Of a stretch of 64,000 nucleotides of DNA, positions 12,544 to 29,558 are shown piece by piece. A program made the position numbers and the translations under genes. The first letter of the stretch is position 1; each line of letters starts with the position of its first letter. The notes under the pieces are model-generated. The model saw only the letters and a list, made by a program, of their open reading frames with translations, was not told the origin of the DNA and searched no databases. Source of the stretch: Saccharopolyspora sp. NFXS83. Lineage in GTDB: Bacteria > Actinomycetota > Actinomycetes > Mycobacteriales > Pseudonocardiaceae. The stretch lies in assembly GCF_026241095.1 (NCBI RefSeq), contig NZ_JAPFGB010000009.1, positions 1 to 64,000 on the forward strand, in the 5' to 3' direction.

Positions 12544-12560
12544 CGGCAGGGGGAGCGGAG

Positions 12561-14190: not shown

Positions 14191-14220
14191 CCTGGCGAGC
14201 TGTTCCGGGAGGTTTTCGCA

Positions 14221-14256: not shown

Positions 14257-14275
14257 GGGCCTGCGATGATGATCT

Positions 14276-14293
14276 AAAGGGGACCCCCCTTTT
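14276..14293 (+). terminator. Rho-independent terminator of ndh operon
   Basis: AAAGGGG-ACC-CCCCTTT followed by T is a 7-bp stem with a T tail, rare in this GC-rich DNA. A second hairpin GCCCCC-CA-GGGGGC (14297-14310) follows directly. Together they insulate the tRNA gene from ndh. Confidence 0.7.
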
Positions 14294-14381
14294 CCGGCCC
14301 CCCAGGGGGCTGTTGTACGGTATGCAGGCACGCGATGAACGGGACCGAAACACCGGAACCGAACACCGCACAAGTGAATCA

Positions 14382-14454
14382 GGGGCTGTGGCGCAGTTGG
14401 TAGCGCACTTGACTGGCAGTCAAGGGGTCACGGGTTCGAATCCCGTCAGCTCCA
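14382..14454 (+). tRNA. tRNA-Ala (anticodon GGC)
   Basis: The 73-nt cloverleaf is complete: acceptor stem GGGGCTG/CAGCTCC, D arm GCGC-AGTTGGTA-GCGC, anticodon stem CTTGA/TCAAG with loop CTGGCAG (anticodon GGC), and T arm ACGGG-TTCGAAT-CCCGT. The third acceptor pair is G-U, the classic alanine identity element. The 3' CCA is not encoded. It sits at the left border of the polyketide cluster, but no integrase or repeated tRNA end is visible in this window. Confidence 0.95.
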
Positions 14455-14460
14455 CTCGGA

Positions 14461-14500
14461 GGAGTCTGGTCGACGCTTGTGCGTCTTCCGGGCTCCTTTT
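14461..14500 (+). terminator. Terminator of tRNA-Ala
   Basis: GGAGTCTGG (14461-14469) pairs with CCGGGCTCC (14488-14496 region) with G-U pairs and is followed by TTTTCG, a few bases after the tRNA 3' end. Confidence 0.6.
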
Positions 14501-14506
14501 CGTTTG

Positions 14507-14527
14507 TGCGGGGGTCGAGCCCCCGCA
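14507..14527. terminator. GC-rich hairpin downstream of tRNA
   Basis: TGCGGGGG-TCGAG-CCCCCGCA is a perfect 8-bp stem with a 5-nt loop. It has no T tail on the + strand. Its function is uncertain; it may back up the tRNA terminator. Confidence 0.4.
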
Positions 14528-14653
14528 GGCCCCCCGGCGCGGTGGCTGGGGTGCGTCGGCTTCTTCCGCTGGGGTGCGTTCCCGGCCTGCTCGCCGACCA
14601 GCGGTTCGGTGTTCGAGCAAGCTCCCCCAGCCTCCACGTTGAAGTGGCAGATC

Positions 14654-14687
14654 ACAGGGCCGATGTTCTACGGAACATCGGCCCTGT
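14654..14687. terminator. Perfect 15-bp hairpin at cluster boundary
   Basis: ACAGGGCCGATGTTC (14654-14668), loop TACG, then its exact complement (14673-14687), followed by TTCCGTT. It lies 47 bp beyond the end of the leftward sugar operon that ends at 14735 and after the tRNA, so it can terminate in both directions. Confidence 0.75.
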
Positions 14688-14734
14688 TTCCGTTCTGGGG
14701 GACAACTGCGAGGAGTGGGTCCCGGTCAGGATGG

Positions 14735-15931: not shown

Positions 15932-17241
15932 CGGTGACCTCCCACGAACTCCCGGATGGCGGCGACCATGTAGTCGATCATCTCCGGGGTGATCTTCGGG
16001 AACACGCCGATCCAGAAGGTCCGTTCGGTCACCACGTCGCTGTTGACCAGCGTGCCGGAGACGCGGAAATCCTGACCGAGGTAGGCCGGGTGCCGGGTGA
16101 GGTTGCCCGCGAACAGCAGCCTGGTGCCGATCCTGCGTGACTCGAGGAATTTCACGATCTCGGATCGGGCGAACGGGGCGTCCTCGGCGATGGTCAGCAC
16201 GAAGCCGAACCAGCTCGGCTCGCTGCCGGGGGTGGCCTCGGGCAGCAGCAGGTGCGGCACCCCCTCCAGGCCGCGGCGCAGCCGGTTCCAGTTCCGGTTG
16301 CGCGCTTCACCGAACTCGGTCAGCTTGGTCAGCTGCGAGGAGGCCAGCGCCGCCTGGACGTCGGTGGCCTTCAGGTTGTAGCCGATGTGGGAGAAGATGT
16401 ACTTGTGGTCGTAGCCCTCGGGCAGATCACCGAGCCGGTAGCCGAACCGCTTGTGGCAGGTGTCGCTTTCGCCTGGTTCACACCAGCAGTCCCGGCCCCA
16501 GTCGCGCAGCGACTCCACCACGCGCGCCAGCGCGAGGTTGTCGGTGAGCACGCAGCCGCCCTCCCCGGCCGTGATGTGGTGGGCGGGGTAGAAACTGACC
16601 GTGCTCAGGTCGCCGAACCCCCCGGTGAGTTCGCCCCGGTAGCTGGCCCCCACCCCGTCGCAGTTGTCCTCGACGAAAAGCAGGCCGCGTTCGTCGCAGA
16701 GATCGGCGATCTCCCTGGCCTCGAACGGGTTACCCAGTGCGTGCGCGATCATCACCGCCTTGGTCCTCGGCCCGATCGCGTCCGCGACCCGTTGCGCGGT
16801 GGTGTTGTAAGTACCCAGCTCGATGTCGACGAAAACCGGCTTCAGCCCACATTGCACGATGGGGTTGACGGTGGTGGGAAATCCCGCGGCGACGGTGATG
16901 ACCTCGTCCCCGGGCCGCAGCCGCCGCTCGCCCAGCTCCGGCTGGCACAGGGAGGCCATCGCCAGCAGGTTCGCCGACGACCCTGAGTTCGTCAGGTGCG
17001 CCTTGCGCAGCCCGAGGGTCCGGGCGAAGTCCCGTTCGAACTTCCTCGCCGACGGGCCCGCGGTGATCCTCATGTCCAGCGCGGCTTCCACCATCGCCAC
17101 TCGGTCGTTGGCGTCCAGTGTCGCCCCCGACGGCCAGATCGGTGTCACACCCGGCTGGAACGGTCGCTCCGCGACTTCCTTGTCGTAGTCGCGCACGAGC
17201 TGCAGCACCCGGGCTTTCAGTTCCGCGCCATGGTCGCTCAT
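15928..17241 (-). CDS. NDP-4-keto-2,6-dideoxyhexose 3-dehydratase (SpnQ/E1-like, PMP and [2Fe-2S])
   Basis: A 437-aa C-3 deoxygenase. Its PLP-fold active site reads SFYPAHHITAGEGG: the aminotransferase lysine is replaced by His221, the hallmark of PMP-dependent 3-dehydrases. Cys194, Cys252, Cys254 and Cys262 fit exactly the C-X57-C-X1-C-X7-C [2Fe-2S] motif known for E1 and SpnQ. ColD, the GDP-colitose enzyme, lacks this motif. The enzyme removes the C-3 hydroxyl by a PMP and electron-transfer mechanism and needs a reductase, none of which is encoded nearby. ATG at 17241 is chosen because GGAGGA lies about 7 nt upstream; the GTG at 17247 is less likely. It is the first gene of the leftward operon and is divergent from a glycosyltransferase, sharing a regulatory box at 17298-17313. 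Confidence 0.9.
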   Translation of the reverse strand: MSDHGAELKARVLQLVRDYDKEVAERPFQPGVTPIWPSGATLDANDRVAMVEAALDMRITAGPSARKFERDFARTLGLRKAHLTNSGSSANLLAMASLCQPELGERRLRPGDEVITVAAGFPTTVNPIVQCGLKPVFVDIELGTYNTTAQRVADAIGPRTKAVMIAHALGNPFEAREIADLCDERGLLFVEDNCDGVGASYRGELTGGFGDLSTVSFYPAHHITAGEGGCVLTDNLALARVVESLRDWGRDCWCEPGESDTCHKRFGYRLGDLPEGYDHKYIFSHIGYNLKATDVQAALASSQLTKLTEFGEARNRNWNRLRRGLEGVPHLLLPEATPGSEPSWFGFVLTIAEDAPFARSEIVKFLESRRIGTRLLFAGNLTRHPAYLGQDFRVSGTLVNSDVVTERTFWIGVFPKITPEMIDYMVAAIREFVGGHR

Positions 17242-17297
17242 CAGCACTTCCTCCCCGGGTGGCGGGATACGGTGACCTCATACTTCCGTACGCAGGA

Positions 17298-17313
17298 CTG
17301 GGTTTTTCCCCAT
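17298..17313. promoter_or_regulatory. PAS-LuxR-type operator box 1 (divergent promoter)
   Basis: On the minus strand ATGGGGAAAAACCCAG, matching 13 of 16 positions of the PimM-type consensus CTVGGGAWWTCCCBAG as I recall it. The centre is 32.5 nt from the rightward glycosyltransferase ATG (17338) and 64.5 nt from the leftward 3-dehydratase ATG (17241). Confidence 0.55.
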
Positions 17314-17337
17314 ACTCGGGTTACCTAGCATCGCAGG

Positions 17338-18600
17338 ATGCGAGTGCTGATCGCGATCTCCGCCTGGCCGGGACACTTCATGCCGATGGTGCCGCTGGGC
17401 TGGGCTCTGCGCAGTGCCGGGCACGATGTGCGGGTGCTGTGCAGCCCGCAGGAGGTCGACGCGGTCGTCCGGACCGGTCTGCACCCCGACCCGCGCCTGC
17501 TGGGTTTACCGATGGTGTGGTCCACCAGGCTGATGAACCTTTTCAGCGCCTACCACGGGACCTGGCGCTACCCGGCCCGGCCGCTGCACCCCGACACCGG
17601 GGAGCCGCTGGACCTGGACACCTTCGACATGGGCGGCTGGTGGTCCGCCGCCGTGGACACGTTCGGCAGGCGATGGCGCCAGGACGCGGAGACGGCCGCG
17701 GCCTACGGCCGGGAATGGCGGCCCGACCTGGTGGTCCACGACCCGTTGAGCGCCGAAGGACCGCTGGCGGCGCACGCGGCCGGGGCCCTCAGCGTGGTGC
17801 ACCTGTGGGGACCGACCGGAACAGAGGAACCACTGTGCACCACCGGCGGCTTCGGCGAGGGCGACCCGAGCCGGAACTCCCGCGCCAGGGACTCATTCGG
17901 CCCGGACAGCCCGTTCGGGTCCGCGGAGCTCGCCTCGGTGCTGGACCAGCAGCTCACCCAAGTGCTCGACCCGTGTCCCGGCGAGTTCGGGCTGAACAGC
18001 GTCGGCGCCAGGCTGCCCATCAGGTTCGTTCCGTACAACGGTCCGGGAACCCTCCCCGAGAAACTCCCCGAACGCGACGGCCGTCCACGTGTGTGCGTGG
18101 TGTGGGGCCGCACCACCACGCGTGGCTTCGGGCCGGTGGCGAACAAGGTTGAGCAGGCGGTCACCGCCGCGACCGAGCTCGGTGCGGAAGTGCTGCTGCT
18201 GGCCTCGGAATCCGACGCCGGCAACGCGGAACTGCCCGGGCAGGTGCACCGGCTCAGCGAGGTGCCGCTGCACCTGGTGTTGCCCACCTGTGACGCGGTG
18301 ATCCACGCGGCAGGTGGCGGTTCCATCCTGACCTCGATGGTCTGCGGGGTGCCCCAGCTCATGCTGACGGTCGCCGAGAACGCCGAGAAGTGGTCGGCTG
18401 GAAGACTGGAACGGGCCGGTTGCGGGTTGTCCGTGCGCAATTACGAGGCCGACGTCCCCGCGATCAAGGTGGAGCTCGAACGTCTGCTGTCCGAACCGGC
18501 GTTCGCCGAGTCGGCTCGCCGGCTCGCCGGTGAGGCGCAATCCATGCCCTCCCCGGCCGCGGTGGCCGGTCAGCTGGAATCGCTCGTCTCGGCGCGGTGA
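17338..18600 (+). CDS. Macrolide-type glycosyltransferase 1 (GT1 family, DesVII/SpnP-like)
   Basis: A 420-aa GT-B glycosyltransferase that should transfer a deoxysugar from its nucleotide to a hydroxyl of the polyketide. The N-terminus MRVLIAISAWPGHFMPMVPL and the donor-site motif IHAAGGGSILTSMVCGVPQL (residues ~320-340) are typical of actinomycete macrolide transferases. It is closer to the DesVII/EryCIII/SpnP type, some of which need a P450-like helper; no such heme-less helper is in the window. The ATG has no true ribosome binding site (GCAGG touches it) and lies 32.5 nt from the centre of box 1, so the transcript may be leaderless. Acceptor and sugar are not determined. Confidence 0.88.
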   Translation: MRVLIAISAWPGHFMPMVPLGWALRSAGHDVRVLCSPQEVDAVVRTGLHPDPRLLGLPMVWSTRLMNLFSAYHGTWRYPARPLHPDTGEPLDLDTFDMGGWWSAAVDTFGRRWRQDAETAAAYGREWRPDLVVHDPLSAEGPLAAHAAGALSVVHLWGPTGTEEPLCTTGGFGEGDPSRNSRARDSFGPDSPFGSAELASVLDQQLTQVLDPCPGEFGLNSVGARLPIRFVPYNGPGTLPEKLPERDGRPRVCVVWGRTTTRGFGPVANKVEQAVTAATELGAEVLLLASESDAGNAELPGQVHRLSEVPLHLVLPTCDAVIHAAGGGSILTSMVCGVPQLMLTVAENAEKWSAGRLERAGCGLSVRNYEADVPAIKVELERLLSEPAFAESARRLAGEAQSMPSPAAVAGQLESLVSAR

Positions 18601-18637
18601 TCCGCCGCACCAAGTCCAATGTGGACAACTCGACAAG

Positions 18638-18650
18638 CTGGGATTAAACC
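18638..18650. promoter_or_regulatory. Weak, degenerate operator-like site before 2,3-dehydratase
   Basis: CTGGGATTAAACC keeps one GGGATT half-site and a CC remnant of the cluster box and is centred about 49 nt upstream of the 2,3-dehydratase ATG. It lies in the 92-bp gap after glycosyltransferase 1. It is too degenerate to claim alone. Confidence 0.2.
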
Positions 18651-18692
18651 TACATCTTTCCCGATACAACTGTGCTGTCAGGAGGTGGGTTC

Positions 18693-20123
18693 ATGGCAAC
18701 GGTGGAAGGACCCGTCCTGCGGGTGCCCGACGACACGCTGACGGGTCGGCTCGCACTCTCCGCGTCCACGGTGGACGGTGGCGTCAACTCCCTGGCCGAC
18801 ATCCGTTCCTGGCTCGCGCGGCGTCGTGCCAGTCAGCTCCACCACGTGGAGCGCATCCCGTTCTCCGGTCTGCGATCCTGGCGGTTCGAGGAAGGCTCGG
18901 CCGACCTGTGCCACGACAGCCACAAGTTCTTCCGTATCCAGGGATTGCGGGTCCACTCGGACTACCGGCACGTCCGGCAGTGGACGCAGCCGATCATCAA
19001 CCAGCCGGAGATCGGCATACTCGGCATCCTGATCCGGGACATCGACGGGGTACCGCACTGCCTCATGCAGGCGAAGGCCGAGCCGGGCAACGTCAACGGG
19101 GCGCAGATCTCCCCGACGGTGCAAGCCACGCGGAGCAACTACCTCCGGGTGCACGCGGGAAACACCGTGCCGTACCTGGAGTACTTCCAGAACCTGCAGT
19201 CCGGCAGCGTACTCGCCGACGTGCTGCAGTCCGAGCAGGGCGCGTGGTTCTACCGCAAGCGCAACCGCAACATGATCGTCGAGGTGGACGGGCCGGTCGA
19301 GGCAGGCGACGACTTCTGCTGGGTGACCCTCGGGCAGCTGCACGTCCTTCTCGGTGAGGACAACACCGTCAACATGGACACCAGGACCGTGCTGGCCTGC
19401 ATGCCGGGCGGTTTCGAAGGTGCCCTGGGTGACCAGGACGAGTTCATGTCGGCTCTGGTCAGCTCCTGCGACCCGGCGCGCGGCGGGCTACGCACCAGGA
19501 CCGAGGCGATGAGCTGGATAACGTCCCGGGAAGCCCAGCACGACGTGCGGACCGAGCTGCTCGGGCTGAACGAGGTGCGGGAGTGGCGCCGTACCGAGGA
19601 CGTCATCCGCCACGAGGAGGACCGCTTCTTCCGGGTCATGGCGGTGTCGGTGCGGGCGGACAGCCGCGAGGTGGCCGGCTGGACCCAGCCGCTGATCGAG
19701 CCCGTCGGTGTCGGCTCGATCGCGTTGCTGGTCAAACGAGTGGCCGGAGTGCTGCACGCGCTGGTGAGCGCACGGGTCGAGCCCGGCTACCGCAGCACCA
19801 TCGAACTGGCGCCGACCCTGCAGTGCATCCCGGCGAACTATGCGGGATTACCGAGGGAACTGCACCCGCCGTTCCTCGACTACGTCCATGATCGTGATCC
19901 GCGCCAGGTGTGGTTCGACGCCGAACTGTCCGAGGAGGGCGGGCGCTTCTACCACGCCCGCAACCGGTACCAGATCATCGAGGCACCGGAAGACTTCCCG
20001 GACGGCGACCGGCCGGACTTCCAGTGGCTGACCCTGCACCAGCTCAACAGCCTGCTGATGCACTCGAACTACGTCAACGTCCAGGCCAGGACCTTGGTCG
20101 CGTGCCTGCGGGGGCTGCGGTGA
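18693..20123 (+). CDS. NDP-hexose 2,3-dehydratase (SpnO/TylCVI-like)
   Basis: A 476-aa enzyme for the first step of C-2 deoxygenation: it removes water from an NDP-4-keto-6-deoxyhexose to give an unstable 3,4-diketo-2-deoxy sugar. The protein is a tandem duplication of a ~210-residue unit, as in the family: QWTQPIINQPEIGILGI in the first half matches GWTQPLIEPVGVGSIAL in the second, and QISPTVQATRSNY matches ELAPTLQCIPANY. ATG at 18693 has GGAGGT at 18681-18686. Its stop overlaps the start of the next gene (GTGA at 20120), and the unstable product is expected to be passed to that 3-ketoreductase. Confidence 0.92.
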   Translation: MATVEGPVLRVPDDTLTGRLALSASTVDGGVNSLADIRSWLARRRASQLHHVERIPFSGLRSWRFEEGSADLCHDSHKFFRIQGLRVHSDYRHVRQWTQPIINQPEIGILGILIRDIDGVPHCLMQAKAEPGNVNGAQISPTVQATRSNYLRVHAGNTVPYLEYFQNLQSGSVLADVLQSEQGAWFYRKRNRNMIVEVDGPVEAGDDFCWVTLGQLHVLLGEDNTVNMDTRTVLACMPGGFEGALGDQDEFMSALVSSCDPARGGLRTRTEAMSWITSREAQHDVRTELLGLNEVREWRRTEDVIRHEEDRFFRVMAVSVRADSREVAGWTQPLIEPVGVGSIALLVKRVAGVLHALVSARVEPGYRSTIELAPTLQCIPANYAGLPRELHPPFLDYVHDRDPRQVWFDAELSEEGGRFYHARNRYQIIEAPEDFPDGDRPDFQWLTLHQLNSLLMHSNYVNVQARTLVACLRGLR

Positions 20124-21106
20124 CCGCGCGGCTCTCGCTGGGCGTGCTCGGCTGCTCGGCCATCGCCCGGCGGCGCACGATTCCCGCGCTGGACTCGCTC
20201 GGCAACGTCCGGCTGGCCGCTGTCGCCAGCCGCTCGGCGGAGAAGGCGGAGCGATTCGCCGCGGCGTTCGGTGCCGAGCCGTGCGGCTACGTCGAGCTGA
20301 TCGAGCGGCCGGACGTCGACGCGGTGTATCTCAGCCTGCCCAACATGCTGCACCACGAGTGGGCCAGGCGGGCGTTGCTGGCCGGCAAGCACGTGCTGTG
20401 CGAGAAGCCGCTCACCGGCGACCCGTCCACCACCGAGGAACTGATCGACCTGGCTGCCGAGCGGGGCCTGGTGCTGCGGGAGAACTTCGCCTTCCTGCAC
20501 CACCCCCAGCACGCCAGGGTCCGGGAGCTGATGGCCGACGGAAGGCTCGGCGCGATCCGCACCCTGAGCGTGGCGTTCACCATCCCGTCGCTGCCGTCCG
20601 ACGACATCCGCTACAACGCGGCACTCGGCGGCGGCTCACTGCTCGACCTCGGTGTCTACCCGCTACGGCTGGCGTGGCTGCTGTTCGGCGACGGGCTGTC
20701 GGTGGCGGGCGCGGCACTGCGGGTGGACGAGCGGCTGGGCGTGGACGTGGCGGGGCAGGCCCTGCTGGTCTCCCGCGGCGGTGTGTTCGTCGACCTGCAA
20801 TTCGGTTTCCAGCACTCCTACCGGTGCCGGTACGAGGTGTGGGGGAGCACCGCCTCGCTGAGCCTGGACAGGGCGTTCACCCCGCCGCCGGAACACCGGC
20901 CGGCCATCGTCGTCGAGGAACAGGACCACGACGAGCGGTTCTTCCTGCCGCCGGCTCACCAGTTCCGGCTCTCGGTCTCGTCGTTCGCCGACGCGGCGCT
21001 GCGCGGGGCGGTGGCGAGCGAGGAGGAGCGCTGGCTGACCGGCGCCCTGGAGACCGCCCGGCTGGTCGAGGACGTCCGGGCGGCCTCGGCGGGGCACCTG
21101 GCCTGA
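20120..21106 (+). CDS. NDP-hexose 3-ketoreductase (SpnN-like, Gfo/Idh/MocA family)
   Basis: A 328-aa NAD(P)H-dependent reductase. It has a Rossmann start (LGVLGCSAIARR), the family motif CEKPLT near residue 95 and a C-terminal alpha/beta domain (GGGSLLDLGVYPLR). It should reduce the C-3 ketone formed by the adjacent 2,3-dehydratase to give an NDP-4-keto-2,6-dideoxyhexose. GTG at 20120 overlaps the stop of the dehydratase gene by 4 bp, which indicates translational coupling. The gene ends 11 bp from the convergent thioesterase gene. Confidence 0.9.
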   Translation: MTARLSLGVLGCSAIARRRTIPALDSLGNVRLAAVASRSAEKAERFAAAFGAEPCGYVELIERPDVDAVYLSLPNMLHHEWARRALLAGKHVLCEKPLTGDPSTTEELIDLAAERGLVLRENFAFLHHPQHARVRELMADGRLGAIRTLSVAFTIPSLPSDDIRYNAALGGGSLLDLGVYPLRLAWLLFGDGLSVAGAALRVDERLGVDVAGQALLVSRGGVFVDLQFGFQHSYRCRYEVWGSTASLSLDRAFTPPPEHRPAIVVEEQDHDERFFLPPAHQFRLSVSSFADAALRGAVASEEERWLTGALETARLVEDVRAASAGHLA

Positions 21107-21117
21107 GCACGGCGAGG

Positions 21118-21867
21118 TCAGGACCCCGCCAGTGCCTCGCCGATCCGGTCGCCGACCTCGGCGGCGTGGTCGACGAGGTAGAAATGGCCGCCGGGGAAGA
21201 TGTGCTGCTGGAATCCGCCGGTGGTGTGCTCGCGCCACGAGGCGGCTTCCGCCAGGCTCACGTTCGGGTCCCTGTCGCCGATGAGCACGGTGACGGGGCA
21301 GGTGAGGCCGTGGTCGACGGTGGTGGAGTAGGACTCGATCGCCCGGTAGTCACCCCGGATGACGGGCAGCGTCATCCGCAGCACGTCCTCATCCTCCAGG
21401 AGTGCCTGTGGGGTGCCCTCCAGCCGGCGCAGCTCGGCGAGCACACCGTCGTCGTCGCGGTGCCCCACGCCGTCGTCGCGGGGCAGCGACGGGGCCCGCG
21501 AGCCGGACACCAGCAGGACACCGGGGCCGTGGTCGGCCCGTTCCAGCCGCCAGGCCGTCTCGAACGCGACCGCGGCGCCCATGCTGTGACCGAAGAACAC
21601 CGTCGGCTTGGCGGGTTGTTCCCGCAGCTCCTCGGCGATCAGGTCAGCCAGGAGCCCGATGTCCTCGACGCACGGTTCGTGTCGGCGATCCTGACGACCC
21701 GGGTACTGGACGGCCACGACGTCCACCTCGGGGGCGAACCGTGCCGACACGGGGTGGAAGAAGCTCGCGGACCCGCCGGCGTGCGGGAAGCACACCAGCC
21801 GCCGGGTGCTCCGTGGCGCGGGGTGGTAGCGGCGCAACCAGGCCGTAGTGTTCTCGGTGATCGTCAC
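21118..21867 (-). CDS. Type II thioesterase
   Basis: A 249-aa alpha/beta hydrolase that removes stalled or wrong acyl groups from PKS carrier proteins. The nucleophile is Ser95 in GHSMG, the N-terminal motif is CFPHAGGSASFF and the catalytic His is in GGHFYLV near the end. GTG at 21867 is chosen because the protein then starts like its family (TITENTTAWLRRYHP); the longer frame to 21963 runs through the regulatory box and adds a non-homologous leader. There is no strong ribosome binding site. Box 2 is centred 31.5 nt upstream, suggesting a leaderless transcript. Confidence 0.9.
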   Translation of the reverse strand: MTITENTTAWLRRYHPAPRSTRRLVCFPHAGGSASFFHPVSARFAPEVDVVAVQYPGRQDRRHEPCVEDIGLLADLIAEELREQPAKPTVFFGHSMGAAVAFETAWRLERADHGPGVLLVSGSRAPSLPRDDGVGHRDDDGVLAELRRLEGTPQALLEDEDVLRMTLPVIRGDYRAIESYSTTVDHGLTCPVTVLIGDRDPNVSLAEAASWREHTTGGFQQHIFPGGHFYLVDHAAEVGDRIGEALAGS

Positions 21868-21890
21868 AGTCCCAGTGAAGTCGCCGTGGG

Positions 21891-21906
21891 GCGGGCAAAA
21901 CCCTAG
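21891..21906 (-). promoter_or_regulatory. PAS-LuxR-type operator box 2 (thioesterase)
   Basis: Minus-strand CTAGGGTTTTGCCCGC matches 12 of 16 positions of the recalled PimM consensus; the CTAGGG half is perfect. It is centred 31.5 nt before the thioesterase GTG. Confidence 0.5.
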
Positions 21907-21940
21907 TTTTGGCCGTAGTGGGTCACGTGCTTCGCGTTCC

Positions 21941-21960
21941 GGCCCGCAGCACAGCGGGCC
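21941..21960. terminator. Hairpin between GDP-mannose dehydratase 1 and thioesterase
   Basis: GGCCCGC-AGCACA-GCGGGCC is a perfect 7-bp stem. It lies downstream of the leftward dehydratase gene and may contribute to its termination. Confidence 0.4.
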
Positions 21961-21990
21961 CACCCGGTGAGCAACGAGCGGGCTCTCCGC

Positions 21991-22011
21991 TTTCCCCGGG
22001 ACATGGGGAAA
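21991..22011 (-). terminator. Terminator of GDP-mannose dehydratase 1
   Basis: TTTCCCC-GGGACAT-GGGGAAA is a 7-bp stem 9 bp past the stop codon at 22021 on the minus strand. Confidence 0.55.
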
Positions 22012-22020
22012 TCGCTTGGG

Positions 22021-23052
22021 CTACCAGGCCGAATTCAGCGTCAGCTCGGCGTACTTCTGCTTCCACTCGGCCTGTCGGAGGTCCGACTCGACCATGGTCT
22101 GGATCAGCTCTTCGAAGGACAGGGTGGGTTTCCAGCCGAGTTCGGTGTGGGCTTTGGTGGGGTTGGCGCACAGCGTTTCGACCTCGGCGGGGCGGATGAG
22201 GTCGGGGTCGACGACGACGTGGTCGCGCCAGTCGAGGTCGACCGCCTCGAACGCGATGCGGGCGGTCTCCTGGACGGAGTGCATCGTGCCGGTGCCGATC
22301 ACGTAGTCGGTGGGGATGGGCTGCTGGAGCATGAGGTGCATGGCTTTGACGTAGTCGCCGGCGTAGCCCCAGTCGCGTTGGGCGTCGAGGTTGCCCAGAT
22401 GCAGCTCGTCCTGGTGGCCGAGTTTGATGTTGGCGGCGGCGAGGGTGATCTTGCGGGTGACGAATTCGGTGCCGCGGCGGGGTGATTCGTGGTTGAACAG
22501 GATCCCGGACACGGCGTACATGCCGAAGGATTCCCGGTAGTTGCGGGTGATGTAGTGACCGTAGGTCTTGGCGACTCCGTACGGGCTGCGCGGGTGGAAG
22601 ATGGTCGTCTCGTGCTGGGGTGTTTCGGCGACCTTGCCGAACATCTCCGACGAGGACGCCTGGTAGAAGCGAATGTCGCTGCTGTTGCTGGTGCGGGACT
22701 TGTCGAGCCCGCTGACCAGCCGGATGGCCTCCAGCATGCGCAGCACGCCCATGCCGTTGATCTCGGTGGTCAGTTCTGCCTGCTGCCAGGACAGCGGAAC
22801 GAACGAGATCGCCCCGAGGTTGTAGACCTCGTCGGGCTGTACCTGATCGATCGCGGACACCAGACTGCCCTCGTCCATCAGGTCTCCATCCACGAAGGAC
22901 AGATCGGCCATCAGCTGGCTGATGCGGGACTTCCTCGGATTCGCCTGACCACGGATCATGCCCCATACCTGGTAACCGAGACCGAGCAGGTGCTCGGCGA
23001 GGTAGGAGCCGTCCTGGCCGGTGATACCGGTGATCAACGCACGTTTGGGCAC
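22021..23052 (-). CDS. gmd: GDP-mannose 4,6-dehydratase-like enzyme, copy 1
   Basis: A 343-aa short-chain dehydrogenase/reductase-fold enzyme (GMD family). It should convert GDP-mannose to GDP-4-keto-6-deoxymannose. The nucleotide motif is [14 protein letters not shown], the catalytic segment is ASSSEMFGK and the Tyr/Lys pair is in [15 protein letters not shown] at 23052 is chosen because GGAAGGAG lies 7 nt upstream and the family starts here (PKRALITG); the frame back to 23178 has no homology. It differs from copy 2 in the N-terminal ~130 residues and in a C-terminal extension ([15 protein letters not shown]), but 22081-22679 is almost identical to copy 2. A box lies 114.5 nt upstream. Confidence 0.88.
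22081..22679. repeat. Near-identical block shared by the two gmd copies (copy A)
   Basis: This block and 23461-24059 (offset 1380) differ at only about 8 of 599 positions by direct reading, at 22091, 22096, two near 22465, three between 22573 and 22618, and the last base. Outside both ends the similarity falls sharply. It encodes the C-terminal ~200 residues of both dehydratases. Confidence 0.9.
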
Positions 23053-23158
23053 GGGCTTTCTCCTTCCGGCACCGTAGGCCAGCTTGCCGACCTCGGTTGA
23101 GGACACCGACTGCGCACATTTCTCGGTACGCCACTGCCACGATTGAACGCGATCGAGA

Positions 23159-23174
23159 CTAGGGATTCCTCCAG
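23159..23174. promoter_or_regulatory. PAS-LuxR-type operator box 3 (gmd copy 1)
   Basis: CTAGGGATTCCTCCAG matches 14 of 16 positions of the recalled PimM consensus. It lies 114.5 nt (centre) upstream of the leftward gmd copy 1 start and directly adjoins the insertion-sequence remnant. Confidence 0.55.
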
Positions 23175-23381
23175 GCATCAGCGGTCATCCTCGTGGGCCT
23201 GGAGTTCTCCCTGCGCCGGTGGCGGGCGAGTCGAACCCGGTGAGGAACTCGTACTTGCTGATTGATGCCGAGCTCCCGAGCACCATGTGAAAACGGCCTG
23301 CCCGACGACATGGCCAGCCGAACCGCTTCCTCGCGAAACTCCGGCGAGCGCAAAATCACGCGTCCCACTGAATTGCTTCCT
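23175..23381 (-). pseudogene. Transposase fragment (IS3-like OrfA N-terminus), degenerate
   Basis: The minus-strand frame from 23368 reads SPEFREEAVRLAMSSGRPF, then GARELGIN, typical of the N-terminal helix-turn-helix of IS3-type OrfA transposases. After about residue 38 the similarity is lost; arginine-rich traces in other frames suggest a frameshift. No complete transposase, terminal repeats or target duplication is seen. It lies between the two gmd copies, so it may mark a past rearrangement there. Family placement is tentative. Confidence 0.6.
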
Positions 23382-23436
23382 CATTCCCTGAACAAAGACG
23401 CCTCATTGGGCCCCTGTCCGAGAACTTCGAGGCACC

Positions 23437-24429
23437 TCAGCCGGCGGTCAGCCTGCGCAGGTCCGACTCGGCCATCGTCTGGATCAGCTCTTCGAAGGAC
23501 AGGGTGGGTTTCCAGCCGAGTTCGGTGTGGGCTTTGGTGGGGTTGGCGCACAGCGTTTCGACCTCGGCGGGGCGGATGAGGTCGGGGTCGACGACGACGT
23601 GGTCGCGCCAGTCGAGGTCGACCGCCTCGAACGCGATGCGGGCGGTCTCCTGGACGGAGTGCATCGTGCCGGTGCCGATCACGTAGTCGGTGGGGATGGG
23701 CTGCTGGAGCATGAGGTGCATGGCTTTGACGTAGTCGCCGGCGTAGCCCCAGTCGCGTTGGGCGTCGAGGTTGCCCAGATGCAGCTCGTCCTGGTGGCCG
23801 AGTTTGATGTTGGCGGCGGCGAGGGTGATCTTGCGGGTGACGAACCCGGTGCCGCGGCGGGGTGATTCGTGGTTGAACAGGATCCCGGACACGGCGTACA
23901 TGCCGAAGGATTCCCGGTAGTTGCGGGTGATGTAGTGACCGTAGGTCTTGGCCACGCCGTACGGGCTGCGCGGGTGGAAGATGGTCGTCTCGTGCTGCGG
24001 TGTTTCGGCGACCTTGCCGAACATCTCCGACGAGGACGCCTGGTAGAAGCGAATGTCGCCGCTGCCGGCAGCGGACTCGTCGAGTCCGCAGACGACGCGG
24101 ATGGCCTCCAGCACGCGCAGCACGCCCATGCCGTTGACCTCGGTGGTCAGCTCCGCGTGCTGCCAGGTGGTGGGCACGTATGAGGTACCTGCCAGGTTGT
24201 AGATCTCGTCGGGCCGAGCCCGCTCCACGGCGGCCACCAGGCTCGCGCTGTCGTCGAACTCTGCCCTGGTGAACGACAAGTCGTCGACGAGGTGCGCGAT
24301 CCGGGAGGTCGCCGGATCGCTGTCGCGCCGGAGCACGCCCCACACCTGGTACCCGAGGTCGAGCAAGTGTTCGGCGAGGTAGGAGCCGTCCTGGCCGGTG
24401 ATCCCCGTGATCAACGCGCGCTTGGCCAT
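23437..24429 (-). CDS. gmd: GDP-mannose 4,6-dehydratase-like enzyme, copy 2
   Basis: A 330-aa paralogue of the enzyme at 22021-23052, with the same motifs ([35 protein letters not shown]). ATG at 24429 has GGAAGGGGAG just upstream. It lacks the C-terminal extension of copy 1, ending DLRRLTAG. Its N-terminal ~130 residues differ from copy 1 at many positions (for example RRDSDPATSRIAHLVDD), while the rest is nearly identical at the DNA level. Both copies keep their catalytic residues, so either could be active. It is divergent from glycosyltransferase 2 and its promoter region holds box 4. Confidence 0.88.
   Translation of the reverse strand: MAKRALITGITGQDGSYLAEHLLDLGYQVWGVLRRDSDPATSRIAHLVDDLSFTRAEFDDSASLVAAVERARPDEIYNLAGTSYVPTTWQHAELTTEVNGMGVLRVLEAIRVVCGLDESAAGSGDIRFYQASSSEMFGKVAETPQHETTIFHPRSPYGVAKTYGHYITRNYRESFGMYAVSGILFNHESPRRGTGFVTRKITLAAANIKLGHQDELHLGNLDAQRDWGYAGDYVKAMHLMLQQPIPTDYVIGTGTMHSVQETARIAFEAVDLDWRDHVVVDPDLIRPAEVETLCANPTKAHTELGWKPTLSFEELIQTMAESDLRRLTAG
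23461..24059. repeat. Near-identical block shared by the two gmd copies (copy B)
   Basis: Partner of 22081-22679 at offset 1380 with about 8 mismatches in 599 bp. The sharp edges of identity inside two otherwise diverged genes point to recombination rather than simple recent duplication of the whole gene. Confidence 0.9.
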
Positions 24430-24514
24430 GTCTCCCCTTCCTGCGGGCGGAGCGCTCTGCGGCGCGGCGCCGCCCTGCCGGACAGCGTCCGCGCCTCACG
24501 TTAGCCGAGGGTGA

Positions 24515-24530
24515 CTGGGCGTTTTCCCAC
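24515..24530. promoter_or_regulatory. PAS-LuxR-type operator box 4 (gmd copy 2)
   Basis: The minus strand GTGGGAAAACGCCCAG matches 12 of 16 positions of the recalled PimM consensus. The centre is 93.5 nt upstream of the gmd copy 2 ATG. Confidence 0.45.
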
Positions 24531-24543
24531 ACCGCCCGTGCAA

Positions 24544-24559
24544 CTAGGGGTTTTCCAGC
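24544..24559 (+). promoter_or_regulatory. PAS-LuxR-type operator box 5 (glycosyltransferase 2)
   Basis: CTAGGGGTTTTCCAGC has a perfect CTAGGG half-site and about 11 of 16 matches overall. The centre is 32.5 nt before ATG 24584, the same distance as for glycosyltransferase 1. Confidence 0.45.
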
Positions 24560-24583
24560 ACCGGCCGCGCGATGCTGTGGCCC

Positions 24584-25999
24584 ATGAACTCCGTTCGGCG
24601 TCCGATCCTGTTCGTCAGCATGCCCGAGAGCGGCCTGCTCAACCCGCTGCTGGTGCTAGCCGGCGAGTTCGCCCGGCGCGGCGTTCCGGACCTGGCCTTC
24701 GCGACCGACGAGACCCGCCGGGCGGACGTGGAGCGGCTGGACGGGGTCGAGTTCGTGTCCATGGGACGCGCCCCGGCCGGGTTGACGCCGTCCACGATGG
24801 ATGCCGAGACCTTCCGCGCCGCCGCGCAGCCGAACCGGTTCCGGTCCCTGCGCGCCGGTGTCGAGCTGATGTACCAGCCCGACCGGCAGGCGGATGGCAT
24901 GCGAGCCCTGCGCACCGCGGTCGACGAGCGGCGCCCGGCGCTGATGGTGATCGACAGCATGAGCATGTTCCCGATCGCGCTCGCGGTCAGCAGGGGGATC
25001 CCGTTCGTGGTGAGCAATCCGTTCCTGCCGAGTCATGCGATGACCTGGCACGTGCCGTTGCCGTTCGGATCACACCTGCCCAAGGGCTTCCCGGCGCCCA
25101 ACACCGGGCTGCCGCATCCGATGAGCGCACGCCAGCGGCTGGCCAACCGGCTGTTCCAGCTGCGCGGCCTGACCATGCTGTTCGGCTCCAGGATGCGCGA
25201 ACGGTTCGGCGCGTACACGCGGCTGTGCCGCGAGCTGGACATCTCACCGGAGGCCCAGCGCCCCCGGGTGTCGGCCGACGTGGCGGAGCTGGTGCTGACC
25301 TACTCGGTCGCCGAGCTGGAGTACCCGGTCGACCTCCCGTCGACGATGCGCCTGGTGGGCACCATGCTGCCGCCGCTGCCGGAATCGGCAGGCGACGACG
25401 ACATCACCGCCTGGCTCGACGCGCACCCCTCGGTCGTCTACGTGGGGCTGGGCACGATCACGCAGCTCACCAGGGACGACGTGCACGCTCTGATCGAGGT
25501 GGCCCGCCGGCTGGACGGCCGCCACCACGTTCTCTGGCGGCTGAGCGAGCGGCAGCAGGAGTTGCTGCCGCCGGTCGACCGCCTGCCCGCGAACCTGCGG
25601 GTCGAGTCCTGGCTGCCGTCCCAGCTCGACGTCCTGGCTCACCCCAGCATCAAGGTGTTCCTCACCCACGGGGGCAGCAACGGCTTCCACGAGGCACTCT
25701 ACTTCGGCAAACCGATGGTCATCCGTCCATTGTGGACAGACTGTCACGACGTCGCGGCCCGCGGCCGCAGCGCGGGGGTGAGCCTCACCCTGGACCGGCC
25801 CCACCGCACCGACCCGGACGACATCACCGGCAAGCTGGAGGCGGTGCTCGGCGACGACTCCTACCGGCAACGCGCCGACCGCCTCGCCACCCTGCTGGGT
25901 GCGGCGGGCGGGCGGAGTGCGGCAGCCGACGCCGTCCTCGCGCTACCGGCGCTGACCGGCGACACCGCGCCGGTGACCGGCGCCGCGGGCGTGGAGTGA
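24584..25999 (+). CDS. Macrolide-type glycosyltransferase 2 (GT1 family)
   Basis: A 471-aa GT-B glycosyltransferase of the UGT/MGT type. The donor-site motif LTHGGSNGFHEALYFGKPMV near residue 360 and PLWTDCHD after it are the family signature. ATG at 24584 (NSVRRPILFVSMPESG) is preferred to ATG at 24572 because box 5 would place the transcript start at about this base; neither has a ribosome binding site. It differs clearly from glycosyltransferase 1, so the product probably carries at least two sugars, or one sugar plus a self-resistance glycosylation. It is followed 4 bp later by the ABC transporter operon. Confidence 0.85.
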   Translation: MNSVRRPILFVSMPESGLLNPLLVLAGEFARRGVPDLAFATDETRRADVERLDGVEFVSMGRAPAGLTPSTMDAETFRAAAQPNRFRSLRAGVELMYQPDRQADGMRALRTAVDERRPALMVIDSMSMFPIALAVSRGIPFVVSNPFLPSHAMTWHVPLPFGSHLPKGFPAPNTGLPHPMSARQRLANRLFQLRGLTMLFGSRMRERFGAYTRLCRELDISPEAQRPRVSADVAELVLTYSVAELEYPVDLPSTMRLVGTMLPPLPESAGDDDITAWLDAHPSVVYVGLGTITQLTRDDVHALIEVARRLDGRHHVLWRLSERQQELLPPVDRLPANLRVESWLPSQLDVLAHPSIKVFLTHGGSNGFHEALYFGKPMVIRPLWTDCHDVAARGRSAGVSLTLDRPHRTDPDDITGKLEAVLGDDSYRQRADRLATLLGAAGGRSAAADAVLALPALTGDTAPVTGAAGVE

Positions 26000-26003
26000 T
26001 GCC

Positions 26004-27734
26004 GTGCTGATCCGCCTGCTCCGCCGGTACCTGCGCCCCTACCGGGGGATGGTCGTGCTCGCGGGGCTGCTCCAGCTGGTCGAGGTCGTGGCGATGCTGC
26101 TCCTGCCGACGCTGAACGCCAGCATCATCGACCGCGGGGTGGTCGCCGGCGACCAGGGGCACATCCTGTGGATGGGCGCGCTGATGGTGCTGGTCGCGGC
26201 TGCGGCGGCGGGGGCGGGGATCGGCTCGGTCCTCTGTGGCGCGCGGGCGGCCCTGTCGCTGGGCCGCGACCTGCGGTCGGAGGTCTTCTACCGGGGCCAG
26301 GGCCTGTCCACCCAGCAGGTGGAGCGGATCGGCGGGTCGTCACTGACCACCCGCAGCACCAACGACGTGCAGCAGGTGGAGACGGTGGCATTCGACGGTC
26401 TCACCGCCCTCGCCGCGGTGCCGGCCATCTGCCTGGGCAGCGTCGCGCTCGCGCTGTCGCAGGACGTGCCGCTGTCGTTCGTGCTGCTGGCGTTCATCCC
26501 GGTGATCATCGTGCTGGTCTGGGTCGCGCAGCGCAGGCTGACCGCGGTCTACGGCCGGATCCAGTCCGCGATCGACCGGTTGAACCGGATCGTCGGCGAG
26601 CAGGTCTCCGGGGCAAGGGTGGTGCGGGCCTTCGCCCGCGACGCCCACGAACGCGAGCGGTTCGGGCGCACCAACGCCGAACTCCTCGGCCACTCGCTGC
26701 GGGCCGGACGGCTGTTCGCGCTGATGTTCCCCGCCGTCTCACTCGCCTCCGGCATCGGCACCGTCGCCGTCGTCTGGCTCGGCGCGGTCCGGGTGGACGG
26801 CGGTGAGATCGGGATCGGCACGGTGAACGCCTTCGTCGAGTACCTGGTGTACATCACCTGGTCGATCACCATGGCGACGTTCGTGTTCCTGGTCGTGCCG
26901 AGGGCGAGCGTGTCGGCACGGCGGATCCGCGAGGTGCTCGACACCGAGCCGGACGTGACGCCCCCCGTGCCCGCCCGGACGGGCCGCTCCCGCGGCACCC
27001 TGCTGCTGCGCGGCGTGACGTATCGCTATCCCGGCGCGGAACTCCCGTCGGTGCACGGTGTGGACCTGCGGGCCGGGCCGGGGGAGACGGTGGCGGTGAT
27101 CGGCAGTACCGGCAGCGGCAAGACCACCCTGCTCAACCTCGTGCTCCGCGGCGTCGACGTCACCGAGGGAGCGGTACTGGTCAACGGGGTCGACGTCCGT
27201 GAGCTGGACCCGGAGGAGCTGACGGTGACCGTCGGTGTCGTGCCGCAGCGGGCGCAGCTGTTCTCCGGCACCGTCGCCGCCAACCTCCGCTTCGGCGACC
27301 CGGATGCCACCGACGCCGAACTCTGGCGCGCGCTCGACGTCGCCCAGGCCCGCGAACTCGTCGAGAACCTGCCCGGCGGCCTGGCCGCGGAGATCGCCGG
27401 CGGCGGCGCGGACCTTTCCGGCGGGCAGCGGCAGCGGATCACCATCGCCCGGACGCTGGTGCGACGGCCGCCGGTCTACCTGTTCGACGACTGCTTCTCC
27501 GCGCTCGACCCGGCCACCGAAGCGGCTCTGCTGGCGGCGTTGCGTGCGGAGACCGCGTCGGCCACGGTGCTCGTCGTCGCCCAGCGGGTGAGCACGGTCC
27601 GGCACGCGGACCGGATCGTCGTGCTCGACGAGGGCAGGGTGGTCGGCTCCGGCCCGCACGAGGAACTCCTCGCCACCTGCGAGATCTACCGCGACATCGC
27701 GTCCTCGCAGCAGGCCGGGATGGGTGCCCGGTGA
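26004..27734 (+). CDS. ABC exporter subunit A (half transporter, degenerate ATP site)
   Basis: A 576-aa fusion of a six-helix membrane domain (residues ~1-310) and an ATPase domain. Walker A GSTGSGKTTLL and signature LSGGQRQRI are canonical. The Walker B end is FDDCFSALD, with Asp in place of the catalytic Glu, and the switch residue is Gln in VVAQRVSTV instead of His. These changes are typical of the partner that forms the inactive site in heterodimeric exporters. GTG at 26004 has GGAG 7 nt upstream. Its last bases overlap the start of subunit B (GTGA at 27731). The pair probably exports the finished glycosylated polyketide or gives self-resistance. Confidence 0.9.
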   Translation: MLIRLLRRYLRPYRGMVVLAGLLQLVEVVAMLLLPTLNASIIDRGVVAGDQGHILWMGALMVLVAAAAAGAGIGSVLCGARAALSLGRDLRSEVFYRGQGLSTQQVERIGGSSLTTRSTNDVQQVETVAFDGLTALAAVPAICLGSVALALSQDVPLSFVLLAFIPVIIVLVWVAQRRLTAVYGRIQSAIDRLNRIVGEQVSGARVVRAFARDAHERERFGRTNAELLGHSLRAGRLFALMFPAVSLASGIGTVAVVWLGAVRVDGGEIGIGTVNAFVEYLVYITWSITMATFVFLVVPRASVSARRIREVLDTEPDVTPPVPARTGRSRGTLLLRGVTYRYPGAELPSVHGVDLRAGPGETVAVIGSTGSGKTTLLNLVLRGVDVTEGAVLVNGVDVRELDPEELTVTVGVVPQRAQLFSGTVAANLRFGDPDATDAELWRALDVAQARELVENLPGGLAAEIAGGGADLSGGQRQRITIARTLVRRPPVYLFDDCFSALDPATEAALLAALRAETASATVLVVAQRVSTVRHADRIVVLDEGRVVGSGPHEELLATCEIYRDIASSQQAGMGAR

Positions 27735-29512
27735 CCGGGCGGGCGGACGCGGAGCCGGGTACCGCGCGTCAGGTGCTGGCCAGGCTGGCCCCGTACCGGT
27801 GGCTGCTGGGTGTGCTGGTCGTCGCCGGGATCGGTGGCGCGACGATGAGCGCGCTGGTCGTGCCCGCGATCCTCGGTAAGGCGACCGATCTGGTCGTCAG
27901 CGGCGCACGCGGGAACGGGGTCGACTTCGGGGCGCTCGGGGAAATGCTGGTCCTGTTGCTCGTTCTGTACGCGGCGGGCGCCATCCTCGGTTGTGCGCAG
28001 GCGTGGCTCGCCGCCGTGGTCGTCCGGCGGGTGATGTTCGACCTGCGCCGGGACGCGTCGGCGAAGCTCGGCCGGTTGCCACTGCGTTACTTCGACGGTC
28101 ACTCCCGTGGCGACCTGATGAGCAGGCTGACCAACGACGTCGACACCTTCCAGCAGTCGTTGCAGCAGGTGGTGGAGCAGTTCACCGTGCGGTCGTTCAC
28201 GATGGTCGGCGGTGCGGTGATGATGTGTGTCTACTCGCCGCTGCTCGCCGTGATCGTGCTCTGCTCGCTGCCACTGGCCGGTCTGCTCACCGCGCGGATC
28301 ATGCGGCAGGCGCGGGCCCGTTTCGACGAGCAGCGTACGGCCACCGGGGCGCTGACCGCGCACGTCGACGAGTCTTACACCGCGCACTCGCTGATCACCG
28401 CGTTCGGCCGCCGTGGCCGGATGAAGCGGGATTTCGACCGGCACAACGACGCCGTGCGTGCCGCCGGACTGCGTGGTGAGGTCGCCGCGAAGGCCGCCGA
28501 GCCGGTGATGTACCTGATCACCAACCTGACCTACGTGGTGGTCGCCGTCATCGGGGCGCTGCGGGTGGTGGCCGGCTCGCTCACCATCGGCGACGTGCAG
28601 GCGTTCGGGCTCTACAGCGGCAGGTTCGGCGTCGACGCGGGCATGACCGCCGGGATCGTCGGTGACGCGCAGGCGGGGCTCGCCGCCGCCGGGCGGATCT
28701 TCGCGTTCCTGAACGCGGCCGAACAGGAGCCCGACCCGCCCGCCCCGCCGCGGCCGTCACCAGGCCGGGGCCGGGTGGTGTTCGACCGGGTCTCGTTCCG
28801 GTACACACCGGAGACACCGCTGATCGAGGACCTGTCGCTGACCATCGAGCCCGGCCGGACGGTGGCGCTCGTCGGGTCGACCGGTGCGGGCAAGACCACG
28901 CTCGCCAACCTGCTGATGCGGTTCTACGAGGTGGACGGCGGCAGCATCCTGGTCGACGGCACCGACATCGCCGCGCTGCGCCGGGAGGACGCGCGCCGGC
29001 TGAGCGGGTTGGTGCTGCAGGACACCTGGCTGTTCCACGGCACGATCGCGGACAACATCGCCTACGGCAGGCAGGGCGCGACCCGGGCGGAGGTGGAGGC
29101 CGCCGCCCGTGCCACCCGGGTGGACCGCTTCGTGCGGACGCTGCCCGACGGGTACGACACCGTGCTCGGCGAGTCGGCCGGGATCAGCGCGGGGGAGCGG
29201 CAGCTGATCACCGTGGCCAGGGCGTTCCTGGCCGATCCGCCGGTTCTCGTGCTGGACGAGGCGACCAGTTCGGTCGACACCCGCAGCGAGCTGCACGTCC
29301 AGCGGGCCATGAAGGCCGTGCGGGCCGGCCGGACCAGCTTCGTGATCGCGCACCGGCTGTCCACCATCAGGGACGCGGACCTGATCCTCGTGCTGGAGTC
29401 CGGCCGCATCGTCGAACGCGGCACACACGACGAACTGCTCGCCGCCGGCGGGCGCTACGCCCGGTTGCTCGCCGCTCAGCGGACCTCGTTCTGGTCCAGA
29501 ACCGGGGTGTGA
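27731..29512 (+). CDS. ABC exporter subunit B (half transporter, catalytic Walker B)
   Basis: A 593-aa partner of subunit A with the same membrane-ATPase order. Walker A GSTGAGKTTLA, Walker B VLVLDEATSSVD with the catalytic Glu and switch His in VIAHRLSTI are intact, but the signature is ISAGERQLI instead of LSGGQ. In the heterodimer this weak signature faces the weak Walker B of subunit A, so one site is fully active and the other degenerate. GTG at 27731 is coupled to subunit A. The gene ends 102 bp before the P450 gene. Confidence 0.9.
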   Translation: MTGRADAEPGTARQVLARLAPYRWLLGVLVVAGIGGATMSALVVPAILGKATDLVVSGARGNGVDFGALGEMLVLLLVLYAAGAILGCAQAWLAAVVVRRVMFDLRRDASAKLGRLPLRYFDGHSRGDLMSRLTNDVDTFQQSLQQVVEQFTVRSFTMVGGAVMMCVYSPLLAVIVLCSLPLAGLLTARIMRQARARFDEQRTATGALTAHVDESYTAHSLITAFGRRGRMKRDFDRHNDAVRAAGLRGEVAAKAAEPVMYLITNLTYVVVAVIGALRVVAGSLTIGDVQAFGLYSGRFGVDAGMTAGIVGDAQAGLAAAGRIFAFLNAAEQEPDPPAPPRPSPGRGRVVFDRVSFRYTPETPLIEDLSLTIEPGRTVALVGSTGAGKTTLANLLMRFYEVDGGSILVDGTDIAALRREDARRLSGLVLQDTWLFHGTIADNIAYGRQGATRAEVEAAARATRVDRFVRTLPDGYDTVLGESAGISAGERQLITVARAFLADPPVLVLDEATSSVDTRSELHVQRAMKAVRAGRTSFVIAHRLSTIRDADLILVLESGRIVERGTHDELLAAGGRYARLLAAQRTSFWSRTGV

Positions 29513-29527
29513 CCGCGGTACCGCGGT
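29512..29527. repeat. 16-bp perfect palindrome after ABC operon
   Basis: ACCGCGGT twice in tandem gives a perfect palindrome starting at the last base of the subunit B stop codon. Possible weak terminator or protein site; nothing decisive. Confidence 0.35.
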
Positions 29528-29542
29528 GCTCCCGTTGTCACT

Positions 29543-29558
29543 CTAGGGATTTCCCGAC
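29543..29558 (+). promoter_or_regulatory. PAS-LuxR-type operator box 6 (P450-PKS operon)
   Basis: CTAGGGATTTCCCGAC matches 15 of 16 positions of the recalled PimM consensus CTVGGGAWWTCCCBAG and is the best box in the window. The centre is 64.5 nt before the P450 ATG, the same spacing as box 1 to the 3-dehydratase. Confidence 0.65.

Follow-up and report, generated by a model that had tools for sequence, protein, structure and literature searches.

The window considered here, that is, the whole stretch of 64,000 nucleotides that was analysed, covers positions 1–64000 of contig C70 (NZ_JAPFGB010000009.1) of Saccharopolyspora sp. NFXS83 and holds genes of a polyene macrolide cluster together with 16-nt boxes of the kind bound by PAS-LuxR regulators such as PimM and AmphRIV. 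The cluster contains modular polyketide synthase (PKS) genes, an AmphDI-type glycosyltransferase (GT), GDP-mannose dehydratase, cytochrome P450 and ATP-binding cassette (ABC) exporters, a content by which it is assigned to the polyene macrolides, the PKS being recognized by homology and length (Table 1). The initial annotation listed six boxes in the promoter regions and proposed that they define one regulon, the regulator of which is encoded outside the window. This is supported: all six boxes are found where they had been placed, the window has no PAS-LuxR gene, and a 228-aa protein with a PAS domain and a LuxR helix-turn-helix, the only one found in the genome, is encoded on another contig, C34.

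The boxes were scored against CTVGGGAWWTCCCBAG (16 positions), which is published as a consensus (PMC9774167, PMC4700089), and a -10 hexamer of the pattern nAnnnT was sought 11–12 nt downstream of each box, read towards the gene. Such a hexamer accompanies five of the six boxes of the window (17298, 23159 on the plus strand, 24515, 24544 and 29543). Box 1 has it 12 nt off on either side, and box 3 has CATCCT at 11 nt on the plus strand and TTCAAT, which does not fit the pattern, at 11 nt on the minus strand, where it faces gmd1. Box 2 is without it and has TTCACT at 11 nt instead. In the closely related cluster of Amycolatopsis suaedae (G162), four of the six boxes are identical (21891, 23159, 24515 and 29543) and two are altered: box 1 is the same except for one missing C, and the counterpart of box 5, CTGGGGTTTTCCCAGC, has three changes. 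Boxes 29543 and 21891 stay conserved where the similarity of the surrounding DNA ends, the upstream alignment failing within about 10 nt of the former and the DNA immediately upstream of the latter diverging. Furthermore, box 3 is identical in G045 (147907), and the orthologous GT promoter of three relatives also carries boxes (G003, 4551982; G004, 1912703; G005, 1914113). The list of six was incomplete, because two more boxes lie beyond the window in the divergent GT1/PKS promoter, at C70:76146 (minus, towards GT1) and C70:76253 (plus, towards PKS), both with nAnnnT, and box 3, which had been assigned to gmd1, is directed chiefly towards an operon absent from the window. Boxes 29543, 23159, 17298 and 24515 are graded as strong, 24544 as fair and 21891 as the weakest; a further candidate at 22003 (13/16) was rejected, being unconserved and without a -10 hexamer. 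Position, -10 hexamer and conservation in A. suaedae make the boxes credible operators of a PimM/AmphRIV-type PAS-LuxR activator, sited where the -35 region would be.

Table 1. Boxes and genes of the window, in C70 coordinates; scores are matches to the 16-position consensus, and hexamers are given with their distance from the box.
Feature	Positions	Strand	Remarks
Last native gene before the insert	12787–14190	plus	96% identity to G003, 93% to G004
DegT-family sugar aminotransferase	14735–15931	minus	last gene of the cluster on that side
RfbH-like PLP 3-dehydratase	15928–17247	minus	NF011936, 637.8 bits (cut-off 423)
Box 1	17298–17313	both directions	CTGGGTTTTTCCCCAT, 13/16; promoter region shared by the diverging genes for RfbH-like 3-dehydratase (minus) and SelSV-like GT (plus)
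EryCIII-like glycosyltransferase, SelSV-type GT	17338–18600	plus	
NDP-hexose 2,3-dehydratase	18672–20123	plus	PF03559
Gfo/Idh-type oxidoreductase	19910–21106	plus	all NCBIfam hits below cut-off; annotated start overlaps the preceding gene
Thioesterase	21118–21963	minus	
Box 2	21891–21906	minus	CTAGGGTTTTGCCCGC (minus-strand letters), 12/16; precedes thioesterase
gmd1, GDP-mannose 4,6-dehydratase	22021–23178	minus	annotated start on box 3
Box 3	23159–23174	both directions	CTAGGGATTCCTCCAG, 14/16
gmd2, GDP-mannose 4,6-dehydratase	23437–24429	minus	
Box 4	24515–24530	minus	GTGGGAAAACGCCCAG (minus-strand letters), 12/16, TAACGT at 11 nt; precedes gmd2; identical in A. suaedae
Box 5	24544–24559	plus	CTAGGGGTTTTCCAGC, 11/16, GATGCT at 11 nt; precedes GT2
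GT2, AmphDI-like glycosyltransferase	24572–25999	plus	53% identity to the GT at C70:74700
Two ABC exporter genes	26004–29512	plus	
Box 6	29543–29558	plus	CTAGGGATTTCCCGAC, 15/16, GAGACT at 11 nt; precedes the P450-PKS operon
Cytochrome P450	29615–30814	plus	first gene behind box 6
Modular PKS genes	30637–64000	plus	run beyond the window to about C70:122506

The consensus score by itself is weak evidence and does not set the six boxes apart, since the plus strand of the window contains 148 sites with at least 11 of 16 matches (123 at 11, 20 at 12, 3 at 13, 1 at 14 and 1 at 15). The earlier remark that no such boxes occur in the housekeeping half of the window is right for scores of at least 13 (none in 1–14700) and wrong for lower ones (40 sites at 11 or more, 6 at 12 or more). 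A comparison with background promoters gives the boxes more weight: sites of at least 13/16 occur in 7 of the 14 cluster promoters of C70 and in 8 of 206 background promoters, which were drawn from C70, C34 and flanks in relatives (Fisher 4e-6). These seven promoters represent five box places only (17298, 22003, 23159, 29543 and 76253), as divergent promoters share boxes, and one of the five is the rejected 22003. When a box of at least 12/16 is required together with nAnnnT at 11–12 nt, 5 of 14 cluster promoters qualify against 2 of 206; because this spacing was first noticed on the boxes of the window, the fair test uses three relatives and their native polyene clusters, where the figures are 8 of 46 against 2 of 206 (p 2.4e-5). 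In addition, an independent matrix was built from boxes of the relatives' native clusters only (9 sites, 6 of them distinct, from 10 composite hits, the tenth, G004:1825153, being excluded at 244 nt from its gene). Over 151 promoters of the present genome this matrix places promoters of the window cluster at ranks 1, 2 and 3 and in five of the first six places (14 cluster against 137 other promoters, p 4e-5). Over the whole genome (6.9 Mb), the consensus with at most two mismatches is found at 33 places, compared with 4 for a reversed control pattern. Of the 28 that are not on C70, 15 fall within predicted coding DNA and 9 lie at a predicted start or ahead of one, but at none of them does a -10 hexamer occur together with a position before a predicted gene, genes having been predicted crudely in stretches of 3–4 kb; by contrast, the hexamer is present at 29543, 23159 (plus) and 76253. 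A 14/16 box at C70:167884 (L036:3884) also has both, with CAAGAT at 11 nt, 149 nt ahead of a subtilase gene outside the cluster, and is a possible extra target.

The cluster of the window is an insertion. The native flanks extend up to 14574 in the window and from C70:123923 onwards, and they are 93% and 85% identical to G003, where the equivalent sequences end at 664984 and resume at 669219 with 4.2 kb between them. The insert thus comprises C70:14575–123922, with both ends inside one contig; short pieces of 14410–14710 match G004, which puts the junction at 14742 or slightly before it. Contamination or a misplaced contig was considered and is rejected on sequence grounds, as the flanks match G003. 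The genes of the cluster are 86–96% identical to those of A. suaedae and 41–76% identical to their counterparts in the native clusters of the genus, in which the aminotransferase, the 3-dehydratase and the ABC genes find matches of just 27–35%. In A. suaedae a PAS-LuxR gene (C9:19951–20646) comes after the aminotransferase, and then three LAL-like genes (20889–29139), one of which has an AAA_16 match below cut-off, and homology to the window begins at 14742 and so ends 378 nt short of that PAS-LuxR gene. Another difference lies between gmd1 and gmd2, where A. suaedae has a four-gene operon (L124:6294–10894) for a GT, a 3-hydroxyacyl-CoA dehydrogenase, a ketosynthase III and an alcohol dehydrogenase, and it is this operon which the plus-strand side of box 3 faces there. 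Positions 23178–23437 of the window look like the scar of such an operon, with the promoter box kept and remnants only behind it. From the gene order of the window, the two A. suaedae contigs concerned are taken to adjoin. These comparisons give good support to the view that the window cluster, closely related to that of A. suaedae, has been inserted into a variable site of a Saccharopolyspora-group chromosome and lacks the PAS-LuxR and LAL genes, whichever of the two lineages was nearer to the donor.

The regulator was expected beyond the PKS genes. These end at about C70:122506, and no PAS-LuxR gene is found on C70:64001–251684. The predicted side was also wrong as judged by A. suaedae, in which the regulator gene is found at the opposite end, adjoining the sugar genes whose limit in the window is position 14735. 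Profile searches for GerE and PAS meet in one short frame of the genome, C34:225575–226261 (minus strand), the product of which has PAS_4 at residues 32–136 (40.0 bits) and GerE at 153–204 (40.4 bits), both above cut-off; it is the sole PAS-LuxR match in the assembly at 1e-10. The assembly is a draft of 70 contigs and 97.47% complete. Orthologues with 97, 95 and 92% identity stand beside polyene PKS genes in G003, G004 and G005, and the protein is in addition 55% identical to that of the A. suaedae cluster and 54% identical to one encoded in a Streptomyces noursei genome. Domain architecture and polyene-cluster relatives agree with membership of the PAS-LuxR family; the gene does not lie in the cluster that it would control, which is a matter of place and not of family. 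Its ratio of nonsynonymous to synonymous substitutions (dN/dS) against G003 is 0.09 (dN 0.0139, dS 0.152), compared with 0.08–0.13 among G003, G004 and G005, which retain the cluster, and by this measure the C34 regulator is intact and still constrained. Its DNA-binding region is identical to that of the A. suaedae protein at 46 of 58 positions, and to those of seven relatives in other genomes at 41–47 of 58. The regulator is far from the boxes: even if C34 and C70 adjoined, about 136 kb would separate it from the cluster, and in G003, which is a single contig, 4.0 Mb lie between the two places in one direction and, if the contig is circular, 2.8 Mb in the other. Upstream of the gene lie three LAL-type proteins with AAA_16 and GerE (C34:226687–235374), and its other side holds pfkB and phosphotransferase system (PTS) genes, a gene for an alcohol dehydrogenase and, at 218544–221201, one for a fourth LAL-sized protein that matches GerE. 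Between the PAS-LuxR gene and pfkB there is a box-like site at C34:225482 (L044:5482–5497), CTCAGGTTTTCCCGAA, which scores 13/16 and is identical in G003; the same site in G004 is TTCGGGAAATCCCGAG and scores 15/16. A site of this kind before the pfkB-PTS operon might link sugar uptake to polyene control.

In G003, G004 and G005 this block of regulators is followed by a polyene cluster (thioesterase, gmd, PKS genes, P450, GT, PKS genes, SelSV-like GT and 2,3-dehydratase), beyond which come genes that match C34 at 217 kb and below. In G003 coordinates, C34 runs up to 4547273, continues with 4592418–4592478 and 4592728–4593210 (a ferredoxin gene) and resumes at 4642499, so about 45 kb and 49 kb (about 94 kb) are missing, with no N in the stretch. 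The regulators remain, and beside them the ferredoxin (98% identity) and a P450 remnant are all that is left of the native cluster. It is well supported by this alignment that the biosynthetic genes of a native polyene cluster were deleted from C34 and that its regulator block, with four LAL-size LuxR proteins and one PAS-LuxR protein, was kept.

The losses in the two polyene clusters thus seem to complement each other, with a shared operator as the link between them. We consider it likely that the resident PAS-LuxR protein of the deleted cluster activates the incoming, regulator-less one in trans, and we infer binding, activation, hierarchy and order of events as follows. The incoming cluster, without PAS-LuxR and LAL genes of its own, would have retained its operators; the resident LAL proteins would raise expression of the PAS-LuxR gene; and the C34 protein would bind the boxes at -35, activate the incoming cluster in trans and assist RNA polymerase at the promoters for sugar, export, P450/PKS and GT genes. 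It is reported that PAS-LuxR proteins from several polyene clusters can replace one another (PMC4700089).

Several points weigh against this interpretation. The -10 spacing was noticed on the boxes of the window themselves, boxes 21891 and 24544 have low scores, and the non-cluster site C70:167884 ranks fourth with the relatives' matrix, amid cluster sites. The PAS domains of the C34 and A. suaedae proteins diverge (49 of 109 positions identical), which may mean that the operators now respond to another signal. Easy transfer is also questioned by the rimocidin system, where overexpression of the PAS-LuxR gene is reported to have given no significant rise in product (PMC9942304). Moreover, the regulator may be kept for other targets. 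On this alternative the block serves, for example, the adjacent PTS/1-phosphofructokinase operon, the window cluster is silent, and its boxes are relics of an A. suaedae-type regulator. The persistence of the box-like site before pfkB in this genome, G003 and G004 is in its favour, and so is the retention of the block without an adjoining cluster in G001 and G002; G001 has no polyene GT match at 1e-30, which indicates that the block can persist without any such cluster. However, the pfkB site, read by eye, has no nAnnnT at 11–12 nt, and four of the six boxes are identical to those of A. suaedae. Given the reported interchangeability, a constrained regulator that faces intact operators should act unless it is unexpressed, and we regard this alternative as unlikely.

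The draft genome, furthermore, might miss a second PAS-LuxR gene, and the cluster could be controlled by that protein or by some other LuxR protein such as the LAL encoded in the window itself at 6099–8771. The genome has 52 GerE matches, and the assembly is slightly incomplete. Nevertheless, the genome search found one PAS-LuxR protein only, and both ends of the insert lie within one contig, so that a neighbouring regulator gene cannot sit in a gap. The LAL gene is native (93% in G003), and the sole AmphDI-type GT found in G003 belongs to the native cluster there. LAL proteins are not expected to use PAS-LuxR-type operators. Control by a second regulator is therefore very improbable, and trans-activation by the C34 protein is preferred. 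Finally, that the boxes match a permissive consensus merely by chance, as the 148 sites of the window and the coding location of 15 of the 28 places outside C70 could suggest, is hardly to be believed in view of the promoter enrichment with an independent matrix, the fixed spacing of the -10 hexamer and the conservation in A. suaedae and in orthologous promoters of the relatives.

The protein at 6099–8771 (890 aa, AAA_16 and GerE) is itself a LAL-type LuxR regulator in the housekeeping half of the window. It was examined as a candidate cluster regulator and rejected as native to the genus, having counterparts in G003 (93%), G004 (90% over 275 aa) and G005, those in G004 and G005 covering part of the gene. 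With regard to the other genes of the window, all six boxes lie at the annotated 5' ends of the named genes or just inside these ends; the true start of the thioesterase is probably downstream of box 2, and that of gmd1 is probably further in than annotated. The Gfo/Idh-type oxidoreductase is a probable sugar 3-ketoreductase. The type name SelSV comes from the description of the A. suaedae cluster (PMC8944477). The aminotransferase which adjoins the GT in the native clusters has no close counterpart in C70:14735–123000 (best identity 31–32%), and so the GDP-sugar attached by the window cluster may be neutral.

The regulator block without an adjoining polyene cluster is found in three of the six genomes compared, namely the present one, G001 and G002; the latter two appear to be close relatives and have the block at the same site. 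It can be proposed tentatively, with somewhat more doubt than belief, that in this genus the LAL/PAS-LuxR block is a free-standing regulatory island which outlives its own polyene cluster and takes over incoming polyene clusters with a shared operator. The block regulators of G001 and G002 are 51–67% identical to the C34 proteins, less than most of their neighbours (67–92%; PTS protein 78%), and this divergence is a further point against the interpretation preferred here. G002 also has an apparently incomplete polyene cluster within a 120 kb stretch, 0.6 Mb from its block with a full-length diverged PAS-LuxR gene, and near that cluster, at G002:5975604 (L081:15604–15930) and beside a P450 fragment, a 108-aa C-terminal piece of a PAS-LuxR protein with 93% identity to the C34 protein. 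If the island exists, the present genome would represent a natural regulator swap, in which the genes of one cluster came under the sensors of a deleted one. A linkage survey across the family compared 90 GT rows (66 genomes) with 115 PAS-LuxR rows (98 genomes; PAS matches at 1e-45 or stronger): for 51 of the 90 GT loci a PAS-LuxR match is found no more than 150 kb away, for 12 it is farther off on the same contig, for 22 it is on a different contig, and for 5 the genome has none. Draft genomes account for many of the 22, and the survey is no count of trans cases. In five genomes with few contigs (G092, G116, G143, G147 and G194), at least one polyene-type GT locus is separated from the PAS-LuxR matches at 1e-45 by more than 400 kb or is on a different contig, and further trans cases may exist in the family.

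It is commonly assumed that a cluster-situated regulator moves together with its cluster. The present genome suggests that the two can part: it retains the biosynthetic genes of one polyene cluster and the regulators of a second, with a shared 16-nt operator as the only link. A cluster may arrive without regulators and perhaps be switched on, and the conservation of operators across polyene clusters consequently matters for horizontal transfer. In genome mining, a regulator-less polyene cluster need not be dead, and its switch should be sought at the scars of deleted clusters.

The regulator, the operator and the idea of cross-regulation are already known, and it is the arrangement that is new; it was not found in the published literature on PAS-LuxR regulators and polyenes, unlinked or orphan regulators and cluster loss, in a search that subscription papers mostly fell outside. 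The tetraene cluster of A. suaedae (PMC8944477) is nearly gene-for-gene the same as that of the window and has the same boxes, but it keeps a PAS-LuxR gene, three LAL-like genes and the four-gene operon with an extra glycosyltransferase, all of which the window copy is without. The PimM, AmphRIV, NysRIV and PteF systems resemble the present one in protein architecture, in the 16-nt dyad reported at -35, in their target promoters (GT, gmd, P450/PKS) and in their LAL partners. In those systems, however, the regulator is encoded within the cluster that it controls, whereas here its gene is on a different contig, where a polyene cluster has been deleted, and the cluster proposed as its target has no such gene. 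FscRI of Streptomyces albus S4, the PAS-LuxR regulator of the candicidin cluster, is reported to act on antimycin as well (PMC5143413), and there too it is a polyene-cluster PAS-LuxR protein that acts in trans on another cluster through the same motif. FscRI still controls its own candicidin cluster, whereas in Saccharopolyspora sp. NFXS83 the home cluster is gone and the proposed target is a polyene cluster that lost its regulators or never brought them.

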